From contig JAAZXR010000024.1 in NCBI GenBank assembly GCA_014240065.1, positions 1 to 62,038 on the forward strand: a DNA stretch of 62,038 nt, read 5' to 3'. The DNA is from Myxococcales bacterium (GTDB lineage Bacteria; Myxococcota_A; Polyangia; Nannocystales; Nannocystaceae). Position 1 is the first letter of the stretch. The number at the start of each line of letters is the position of its first letter. Position numbers and translations under genes: made by a program. A model generated the notes under the pieces. It saw only the letters and a list, made by a program, of their open reading frames with translations. It had not been told where the DNA came from and did not search any database. Positions 2,026-7,125 of the stretch are shown here, piece after piece.

Positions 2026-2586
2026 CTAGTTGTTCATCGCTCCGTCGAGAATCCACGCGCGAATCCTATCGATCTCGGTCTGCGAAAGCGACGGGAGATC
2101 CTTGGGCATGGCCGCGCCGCAGGTCTGTGTGCCTTCGAGTTTTTGAACGATCAGGCTCGCGTCGGGATTCCCCGGAACCACCCGGACCGCCCCCGTTGGA
2201 CCACACGCCATCCCCATCGCCCCCACCTCCACGAGCGCCGCGTACGTCGACGCCGCATCTGTGATCAAGAGGCCTCCAGTACCGCCCCCATGGCAGTAGC
2301 CATTGTCGCAGCTCGGCGCGATCACCTCTGCGAACAGCGCCCCCCAGGTTTCGTCATTATTTCCCCCGTCTCCACCGGTGGTGTCGGCGTCTGCGCTCCC
2401 GGACGAGTCCTCCATGGCGCCGCTGGTATCTGTAGCGCCCATGCCGCTCGTGTCGCTCATGTCTCCGCCGGTGCCGTCAGTCTCATTGGCCCCGGTCTCC
2501 GCGCTGTCCTCCCCGTCCTCGGCGCAAGCGGCCGCGAGGCATAGAGAGCCTGAAATCACCATCATTCGTAGTCCAAGCCTGATCAT
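2026..2586 (-). CDS. Small lipoprotein with a c-type haem-like motif
   Basis: Predicted lipoprotein of 186 residues. I chose the ATG at 2586 because it gives a proper signal (MIRLGLRMMVISG, then CLAAAC); a longer frame to 2622 would bury it. After the Cys comes a low-complexity linker rich in Gly, Ser, Thr, Asp and Met (about residues 20-65), then a compact domain with PSCDNGYCHGGG, where CX4CH replaces the usual CXXCH. Further on, MPKDLPSLSQTEIDRIRAWI resembles the end of the cytochrome-c-like domains of myxobacterial and planctomycete proteins, with Met as possible axial ligand. Covalent haem is an inference. The gene precedes the TrmA-family gene, but a functional link is doubtful. Confidence 0.7.
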   Translation of the reverse strand: MIRLGLRMMVISGSLCLAAACAEDGEDSAETGANETDGTGGDMSDTSGMGATDTSGAMEDSSGSADADTTGGDGGNNDETWGALFAEVIAPSCDNGYCHGGGTGGLLITDAASTYAALVEVGAMGMACGPTGAVRVVPGNPDASLIVQKLEGTQTCGAAMPKDLPSLSQTEIDRIRAWILDGAMNN

Positions 2587-2788
2587 GGCTGGATAATGAC
2601 ACGAAGCCCCTCCTAGGGCCAAGCAACGAGACTTCGGCGGGCGCGATCTGCATCACGACCTGCCCCGGCCTCGCGGAGCCCCGTTGAAGCGATTCGACCA
2701 CCGTGGAAACCCCCTCGCGGACCGGTCAACCGTCGGATTTCGGCCTCATGCGGCGCCACCGATTTGCGGGTAGGATGCCCTAGAGCCT

Positions 2789-3280
2789 ATGACGACGATC
2801 TGCATGGACTGCCAACGGGTGTGTGGCACGGCCCCGTCCTTGGAAGACGCCTCCACACAAGCGCCGAGCGCGTCACACGGGCTTTGCGTCCGCTGCTACG
2901 CCGCGCGGATGGGCGCGATCGAGACCAGCGAGTTGAAGTACTGGGTGGACTCCGACGTCAATCGGCTCCCCACCGGCAAGATCATCCTCGACAAAGACCT
3001 TAGAGTCATCGGTTATTCGAAGGAAGAAGAGAGCCTCACGGGCCTTATCGCCGCGGAGATCATCGGCAGAGAGTTTTTTGTGGATGTGGCGCCGTGCATG
3101 AATGCCGCGGCGCTCAGCGGCTGGTGTGCCCGGCATGTCGATGACCAGACGCTCACGGACACGAGCATCGACTGGCTCTTGAAGCTGCGTTCGGGTGACC
3201 GTGTCGCCAGTCTCGAGCTGTGCGCTGGAAAAGGAAGGGTCACAATCTTGGTCGACCTCACCGGGTACGGCGCGGCCTAG
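2789..3280 (+). CDS. Photoactive yellow protein-like PAS photosensor with Cys-rich N-terminus
   Basis: A 163-residue protein whose residues 45-163 follow photoactive yellow protein (PYP). The stretch VIGYSKEEESLTG then IIGREFFVDVAPCMN aligns without gaps to PYP around Tyr42, Glu46, Thr50 and the chromophore-binding Cys69, giving Tyr76, Glu80, Thr84 and Cys103, all offset by exactly 34. Arg52 of PYP is Leu here. The first 44 residues are not PYP-like: CMDCQRVC and LCVRC (Cys5, Cys8, Cys12, Cys33, Cys36) could bind zinc or a cluster. There is no signal peptide, so it is probably cytoplasmic. p-Coumaroyl chromophore binding is an inference, as no ligase or lyase gene for it is visible here. The gene stands alone, divergent from the haem-motif lipoprotein. 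Confidence 0.75.
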   Translation: MTTICMDCQRVCGTAPSLEDASTQAPSASHGLCVRCYAARMGAIETSELKYWVDSDVNRLPTGKIILDKDLRVIGYSKEEESLTGLIAAEIIGREFFVDVAPCMNAAALSGWCARHVDDQTLTDTSIDWLLKLRSGDRVASLELCAGKGRVTILVDLTGYGAA

Positions 3281-5512: not shown

Positions 5513-6040
5513 CTACAATTCCCCTCCCATGGAGCTCGTCGTCAAACATTCCGCGTACGCTTCCTGCTCCTGCTCCGTGAGTCCGGAGCACGCGAGGATC
5601 TCCGACTCCCAGGCCGAAGAGCAGGAACCCTCGCACCCGAGCTCATCCTCACCGTCCGCGCAATCCGGCCCGCCGTCGCACTGCAACAGCCCCATAATTT
5701 CCTCACCGTCATCGCACGTAAAGGTGCTGCACTGTTGTGCGGAAGCGCAGACTGCGTAGTCCGCGTACGCCTCGACCTGGCACTCGAAAAATGCGGCGGC
5801 CCCTGCAGAGCCGTTCCATATGGCCTCCACACATTCCGTCGCAAACTCGATTTCCACATCGCAGACGTCCAGCGGGTCGTAGCCCGCAAAGATCGCCGCA
5901 CACTCGCAATAGACAGAGTGCGTCTCCTCGATCGCAGCGACCAGGTCGTCAACTCCCGTCTTCGCCTCGTTCTTACACCCCGCCAACATCGCCGCGGCGA
6001 CGGCAGACATCAGGATCAATGTGCTTGAGTTCGTGTTCAT
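5513..6040 (-). CDS. LDLa-like cysteine-rich lipoprotein (paralogue 1)
   Basis: Predicted outer-envelope lipoprotein of 175 residues. The signal MNTNSSTLILMSAVAAAMLAGC has a good lipobox (MLAGC). The mature part has many cysteines and an LDL-receptor class A-like segment near residues 110-135 (CDDGEEI, then CDGGPDCADGEDELGC), whose acidic residues would bind Ca. It shares layout and motifs with the next gene downstream in coordinates: CKNE/CKND after the lipobox, YCECA, the CDDG and CDG repeats, and a final Cys-rich tail. The two are probably a tandem duplication. The function is unknown; LDLa modules usually mediate protein binding. Confidence 0.75.
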   Translation of the reverse strand: MNTNSSTLILMSAVAAAMLAGCKNEAKTGVDDLVAAIEETHSVYCECAAIFAGYDPLDVCDVEIEFATECVEAIWNGSAGAAAFFECQVEAYADYAVCASAQQCSTFTCDDGEEIMGLLQCDGGPDCADGEDELGCEGSCSSAWESEILACSGLTEQEQEAYAECLTTSSMGGEL

Positions 6041-6340: not shown

Positions 6341-6898
6341 CTAGTAGTAGTAATCGTCCGGAACGCACGCGTCGAACGCATCTTCGTCGGCCTCCGAAAA
6401 TTGAGGGCACGCGTCCACGCCCACCGTGTACTGATACTCACAAGCAACGGAACCAGTCGCGCTTTCACACTCCGCTTCGTCCTCTCCACCTGCACAGTCG
6501 AGGTCCCCATCACACTGATAATCTCCCGGAAATTCTATTCCGTCATCGCACACAAAATCCGGAAGGTCCTCGTCACATCCCACAGCGATGAGGCAATCTA
6601 CGTAGGATTTGGCGATGGCCAGCTCACACTCGAACGTCTCCGACGCGGTGGGTGAGCGCTCGATCACGCCCTCAAGACACGATTCATACTCCGGGTTTAG
6701 CCCGTAGTAGCCCTCGCTGGAGCACTCACTGGGAGCTCCTCCTTGCGCCGCGACCGCACATTCGCAATAAAACTGCCCGAGTCTCGCGTAGAGGGCGACG
6801 TATTCGTCCACGAGCGTGGACCCATCATTTTTACAACTCACGGAGGCTCCTCCGAGGAGAAAAACCAGACCCATGGATGTGCCAAGCTGTCGTTTCAT
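6341..6898 (-). CDS. LDLa-like cysteine-rich lipoprotein (paralogue 2)
   Basis: A 185-residue relative of the gene at 5513-6040. The ATG at 6898 is chosen because it gives the signal MKRQLGTSMGLVFLLGGASVSC; an upstream in-frame start at 7042 would add 48 unlikely residues. The mature protein has YCECAVAA, several Cys pairs and an LDLa-like segment CDDGIEFPGDYQ, then CDGDLDCAGGEDEAEC. It ends in four aromatic/acidic residues, DYYY. By eye this gene and its upstream region are richer in A/T than their neighbours, which hints at relaxed selection or later acquisition. The function is unknown. Confidence 0.72.
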   Translation of the reverse strand: MKRQLGTSMGLVFLLGGASVSCKNDGSTLVDEYVALYARLGQFYCECAVAAQGGAPSECSSEGYYGLNPEYESCLEGVIERSPTASETFECELAIAKSYVDCLIAVGCDEDLPDFVCDDGIEFPGDYQCDGDLDCAGGEDEAECESATGSVACEYQYTVGVDACPQFSEADEDAFDACVPDDYYY

Positions 6899-7125
6899 GT
6901 GCCCAAGTTTACGTGCCACGATTGCCGATACCACCCCAAAATCACGGAGAACGAATGTCGCTATCCGCTGTGCATCTTCCCGTTGATCGCCAAGACTCCG
7001 GCGCCATCCATGGTCCAACTTACGCCGGACTTTAGGAGACACGGAACACCGTCAAGCGCATATATCCAACGTACGATGTGACCACGATCGAGACCAAACG
7101 CTCTCAAATATCGGTACAGTGAGGA

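Follow-up and report, generated by a model that had tools for sequence, protein, structure and literature searches.

A strongly diverged PYP-family protein with a predicted zinc-ribbon-like N-terminal module in a Myxococcales bacterium

The closest described relatives of the protein reported here are the PYP of H. halophila, represented in NCBIfam by TIGR02373, and the PYP domain of R. centenum Ppr (1mzu). A conserved Cys69 serves as the criterion for PYP family members, and TIGR02373 covers only ~20% of PYP homologues (PMC9664959). The signal output of single-domain PYPs is an open question (PMC9664959, PMC12826048). Like both of these systems, the 163-residue protein analysed here has a predicted PAS fold in constant register with PYP and harbours Tyr42, Glu46, Thr50 (Ser in Ppr), Cys69 and eight of nine pocket residues. 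It differs from them by an N-terminal Cys-rich ribbon, the loss of the aromatic array, a C-terminal sheet conserved with a single orthologue and two extra conserved Cys residues.

The gene lies in a 62,038-nucleotide stretch of DNA (hereafter the window) from a Myxococcales bacterium. The ORF at 2789-3280 (+) is intact, with an in-frame stop five codons before the ATG and a coding-like GC content by codon position (0.57/0.49/0.80). Judged from its sequence, it is a real gene whose match to PYP is beyond chance. The main features are as follows.

2789..3280, + strand: zinc-ribbon-like + PYP protein, 163 aa (ATG start, homology, orthologue, codon GC)
2801..2896, + strand: putative zinc-ribbon-like module, residues 5-36, C5-M-D-C8...S29-H-G-L-C33-V-R-C36 (orthologue, L066, L044, L052)
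2918..3262, + strand: PYP/PAS domain, residues 44-158, including an N-cap-like segment (TIGR02373, AlphaFold2 model, PDB structural matches)
3014..3016, + strand: Tyr76, PYP Tyr42 (phmmer to PDB PYPs, 75-sequence alignment)
3026..3028, + strand: Glu80, PYP Glu46 (phmmer, alignment; invariant, 75/75)
3038..3040, + strand: Thr84, PYP Thr50 (phmmer, 75-sequence alignment)
3095..3097, + strand: Cys103, PYP Cys69, the p-coumarate thioester attachment site in PYP (phmmer, alignment, structural register)
3125..3127, + strand: Cys113, position of PYP Phe79 (Cys only in this protein and its orthologue among 75)
3167..3253, + strand: C-terminal sheet IDWLLKL..GD.VA.L.LCAGKGRV.IL, residues 127-155, with Cys145 (71% identity between orthologues)
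2026..2622, - strand: upstream neighbour in divergent orientation, a secreted-type protein whose cytochrome-c-like match is sub-threshold, without evidence of linkage to the ribbon-PYP gene

Assignment to the PYP family and the chromophore pocket

TIGR02373 matched residues 53-129 with an E-value of 1.7e-12, at 47.5 bits a third of its equivalog cut-off of 143 bits, which was passed in only one of the 377 genomes of our phylum sample. PYPs were the sole significant sequence matches in the PDB (phmmer, E 4.6e-8), and Pfam returned only weak, sub-threshold PAS/PAS_4 matches. Over the domain, identity amounts to 22% with H. halophila PYP and to at most 29% with any PYP except the orthologue; the lowest pairwise identity among 984 surveyed PYPs is 27% (PMC12826048). 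A scan of our genome collection yielded one distant PYP only.

An AlphaFold2 model generated with an alignment of six homologues (L134-L138, which are virus proteins described below, and L002) reached an overall pLDDT of 65.5, with values of 85-89 for residues 61-100, ~66-71 for residues 101-160 and ~45-54 for the ribbon; a single-sequence model was useless (pLDDT 37) and was discarded. The model has a PAS fold, and its best PDB matches are PYPs (1odv, Z 11.7, 2.6 A over 93 residues), with residues 62..158 superposed on residues 28..125 of the PYP chain, consistent with an offset of 34. As the input alignment held PYPs, this structural match supports the assignment and is no independent proof of it.

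In the structural ranking, PYPs were closely followed by non-PYP PAS domains. Together with the weak Pfam matches, and with the absence of Cys69 from the nearest group in our tree (see below), this ranking would fit a generic ligand-binding PAS domain that keeps the PYP core for folding and binds another small molecule. We consider this quite improbable, given that the PYP signatures FF-x-D-[VI]-APC and Y..E...T are kept in both orthologues and that no PDB sequences other than PYPs matched significantly. By its chromophore residues, and not by the equivalog cut-off, the protein is a member, though strongly diverged, of the PYP family of PAS domains.

The sequence-only reading of this DNA had equated Tyr76, Glu80, Thr84 and Cys103 with Tyr42, Glu46, Thr50 and Cys69 of PYP at a constant offset of 34, and phmmer, the 75-sequence alignment and the structural register all agree with it. 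Eight of the nine p-coumarate pocket residues listed in PMC12826048 are kept (I31, Y42, E46, F62, V66, A67, P68 and C69); the ninth, F96, is replaced by Leu, and Phe96 is only 56% conserved in the family (984 PYPs, PMC12826048). That reading had also held Arg52 to be the only replacement. Leu does occupy this position, but it is the consensus residue in 984 PYPs (PMC12826048), so that we dismissed R52L as a sign of lost function, and many other positions differ. In the 75-sequence alignment the aromatic array is largely lost (F28T, F75L, F79C, F92I, F96L, with no counterpart of Trp119), and further departures include N43S, T70M, M100S and V105A. F92, F96 and W119 are likewise absent from clade C PYPs (PMC9664959).

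A lyase and a ligase for p-coumarate, for which a search elsewhere in the genome had been suggested, both have candidates. The genome codes for two PF00221 lyases, namely L014, of HAL type (Ser-His pair, KEDHVSMG), and L015, on another contig (C160) and of PAL/TAL type (Phe-His pair, NQDKVSMG), as judged by the criterion of PMC3992019, Gln in place of the Glu of HALs. The first selectivity position is reported as His in TALs, so that with its Phe-His pair L015 may use phenylalanine as its substrate. It is part of a cluster of aryl-polyene/flexirubin-like arrangement (L064, G000:C160:2341-17492) which, by sequence reading, comprises acyltransferase, AMP ligase, ketosynthase, ketoreductase, dehydratase, LolA-like and exporter genes. 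The ligase of this cluster is the best match in the genome to TIGR02372, the PYP-activation 4-coumarate-CoA ligase model, though below its cut-off (100.5 versus 334.7 bits). In the flexirubin cluster of Chitinophaga pinensis, a lyase produces 4-coumarate and a ligase converts it to 4-coumaroyl-CoA (PMC3992019). The proximity of a PAL/TAL-type lyase to a pCL-like ligase thus makes a p-coumarate supply in this genome plausible.

No PAL/TAL-type lyase was found in the draft genomes of the orthologue (72% complete) and of two other bacteria with ribbon-PYP proteins (L052, 77%; L044, 90%), which yielded only HAL-type and non-canonical lyases. These three genomes (G333, G363 and G365) harbour tandem pairs of aromatic amino acid lyases (L122-L124, L126-L128); one member of the pair is HAL-like with SSGD, and the second has AAGD (AAGS in G363) for the usual ASGD active-site triad.

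An N-terminal module that recurs with PYP domains

As had been read from the sequence, the first 44 residues contain five Cys, at positions 5, 8, 12, 33 and 36. The CxxC spacing holds for the 5/8 and 33/36 pairs, which form a CxxC-x24-CxxC pattern with SHG ahead of the second pair. These pairs and SHG are kept in the only full-length orthologue that we found by searching sampled genomes of the phylum, the class and the orthologue's order (L048, G333:C172:2125-2625), which belongs to a different bacterial family and shares 49% identity; Cys12 is not kept. Our genome searches overall covered only a few hundred genomes.

The pattern C..C-x(10,40)-[ST]HG.C..C occurs once in the six frames of the window, at this module. 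A related module, with the same two CxxC pairs and SHG, lies at the C-terminal end of L066, a PilJ-type protein of the same genome; it differs in being C-terminal on a PilJ-type sensor and not on a PYP, and it corresponds to no Pfam family. The search that identified L066 began from a general consensus motif, which served as a lead; the match is the result. A possible second ribbon copy at G000:C162 contains a stop and has an E-value of 0.03, and we attribute it to chance. The ribbon alone had no match in the PDB, and the ribbon of L066 had none in plasmids by tblastn; the whole protein gave only distant PYP-like plasmid matches (Caballeronia, Niveispirillum, Indioceanicola).

The N-terminal module is probably zinc-ribbon-like, with two CxxC knuckles and a predicted structural Zn2+, and a structural or docking role appears likelier than metal sensing. 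The PYP surveys PMC12826048 and PMC9664959 do not mention zinc; the former counts as multidomain only proteins longer than 200 residues.

The Cys-rich extension described in the sequence-only reading holds as a zinc-ribbon-like module, but it is no one-off. Two other bacteria have a ribbon before a PYP domain, L044 (G365, ICAWC..THGICASC) and L052 (G363, IICAWC..THGVCLEC), as do five virus contigs (L134-L138). In all seven proteins a CxxC..CxxC ribbon precedes a PYP domain that has kept Glu46 and Cys69; they differ from the 163-residue protein by their more ordinary PYP C-terminal halves. By sequence comparison, ribbon plus PYP is a pairing that recurs, a new architecture in a known family.

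We built a tree of 75 PYP domains over 129 columns, in which long branches limit placement. The 163-residue protein and its orthologue share a long branch (support 100/99). Their nearest group, also on long branches, consists of PYP-like proteins without Cys69 (L102, L096 and L097), comparable to the 'PYP_like' branch of PMC9664959; the 163-residue protein differs from them in keeping the Cys. These three proteins have Gly at that position (VAPG/IAPG). L044 and L052 are placed elsewhere in the tree, and the virus proteins form their own group (98/94). A single origin of the ribbon-PYP pairing was neither rejected nor proved (AU p 0.08 to 0.26).

Other domain partners of PYP were also observed. 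A motif match revealed a MerR/BldC-type helix-turn-helix N-terminal to the PYP domain in nine sequences (L020, L021, L024, L027, L028, L029, L034, L050 and L051), and scans of L027 confirmed an HTH_17/MerR/BldC-like domain. These MerR/BldC-PYP fusions are candidate one-component light-responsive regulators; the texts of PMC9664959 and PMC12826048 contain neither 'MerR' nor 'helix-turn-helix'. PYP-type domains with Tyr42 and Glu46 also precede histidine-kinase-like sequences in L003/L059 (G018) and L054 (2075, -), the latter with HAYC in place of VAPC.

Light sensing or thiol chemistry

The ribbon is present in the orthologue, as are Tyr42, Glu46, Thr50 and Cys69. Each of the orthologue's seven Cys residues is shared with the 163-residue protein (chance ~0.007 if sites were all alike), and two of them in the PYP domain, Cys113 and Cys145 (positions 79 and 110), are Cys only in this pair among the 75 domains. 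The C-terminal third is 71% identical between the orthologues and has a median identity of 16% to other PYPs, compared with 48% and 38%, respectively, for the chromophore half; this excess conservation is suggestive only (Fisher p 0.07). It suggests that the C-terminal sheet has a conserved function specific to the pair.

The conservation of this sheet and the pair-only Cys residues keep alive the main rival to light sensing, namely that a former photoreceptor became a thiol or metal sensor that uses Cys103, Cys113 and Cys145, possibly together with the ribbon, and binds no chromophore. With most of the aromatic array gone and Cys113 and Cys145 kept at 49% overall identity, a non-photochemical thiol function deserves consideration; methylobacterial Ppr-PYPs have been proposed to perform light-to-redox switching (PMC9664959). 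We nevertheless rate this rival as possible but rather unlikely, since Tyr42, Glu46, Thr50 and the rest of the pocket are kept with no obvious need in a protein devoid of chromophore, and no redox partner gene was found among the nearest genes or those sampled in the rest of the window. Should no chromophore be bound, the protein would offer a clear-cut example of a photoreceptor that became a thiol or metal sensor while retaining its chromophore residues.

Our preferred reading, which we hold with about even confidence, is that the protein is a diverged PYP that senses blue light and docks a partner through its ribbon; the odds of light sensing itself are also about even. It is based on computed homology, the PYP fold, Tyr42, Glu46, Thr50 and Cys69, and the ribbon kept in the orthologue. 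Cys103 would carry p-coumarate, and the PAL/TAL-type lyase and pCL-like ligase from elsewhere in the genome would supply it in activated form. The chromophore would isomerise under blue light, Glu80 would lose its proton, and the sheet and N-cap would rearrange as in PYP. The N-cap is the part that is loosened on PYP activation. The four-Cys ribbon, probably with a structural Zn2+, would sit directly ahead of it, and the ribbon and C-terminal sheet might together form a docking surface for a partner protein encoded not nearby. Kept between bacterial families and also found in virus contigs beside a repressor gene, the ribbon is a concrete candidate output element.

The sequence-only reading had taken the free-standing PYP to suggest signalling by protein contact; this arrangement is ordinary, 83% of 984 PYPs being single-domain (PMC12826048). 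No signalling partner is evident among the nearest genes, which code for a TrmA-like methyltransferase, a secreted-type protein, two proteins without Pfam matches, a glyoxalase and a sucrase/ferredoxin-like protein, and sampled genes across the rest of the window add no linked one. We considered an operon with the downstream gene and judged it unlikely because of the 391-base gap. Elsewhere in the window, two Cys-rich lipoprotein-like paralogues with an LDL-receptor class A-like domain are encoded at 5513-6040 (-), which passes the Pfam cut-off of 24.1 bits (28.4), and 6341-7042 (-), which remains below it (19.5).

Ribbon-PYP genes in virus contigs

Scanned with an alignment headed by ribbon-PYPs, IMG/VR yielded five contigs of 51-64 kb with a ribbon-PYP gene.

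L134:3001-3420, IMG/VR contig: ribbon+PYP gene
L135:3001-3417, IMG/VR contig: ribbon+PYP gene
L136:2992-3402, IMG/VR contig: ribbon+PYP gene
L137:2995-3423, IMG/VR contig: ribbon+PYP gene
L138:2983-3417, IMG/VR contig: ribbon+PYP gene

The encoded proteins, of ~136-157 residues, keep Glu46 and Cys69. They differ from the 163-residue protein by a shorter ribbon without SHG and by the replacement of Tyr42, with Phe in four of them and Val in L138. They had no match among the 50,697 phage records of INPHARED, and our literature search on PYPs with prophages found nothing relevant. A terminase large subunit match is present in three of the five contigs, and an integrase match likewise in three.

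In L134, L136 and L137, the upstream gene, which the ribbon-PYP gene directly follows or overlaps, has a Peptidase_S24 domain and matches a PHROG repressor. The genes preceding it in L135 and L138 are small; their products look DNA-binding by eye but lack Pfam and PHROG matches. In the virus case a candidate partner, the repressor, is thus encoded next door. As the gene adjoins or overlaps a small upstream gene in all five contigs, S24/LexA repressor-like in three, we propose that zinc-ribbon PYPs may form an undescribed class of compact light switches with the ribbon as output, and that temperate phages may use them to couple blue light to the repressor, a proposal we regard as doubtful. The recurrence of the pairing in a few bacteria and five virus contigs, usually beside a virus repressor gene, indicates that it may be an undescribed light-signalling design. 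Light-coupled lysogeny in L134-L138 is a possible lead. L135 and L137 have ParB-like genes on the opposite strand, and NinG is encoded in L134.
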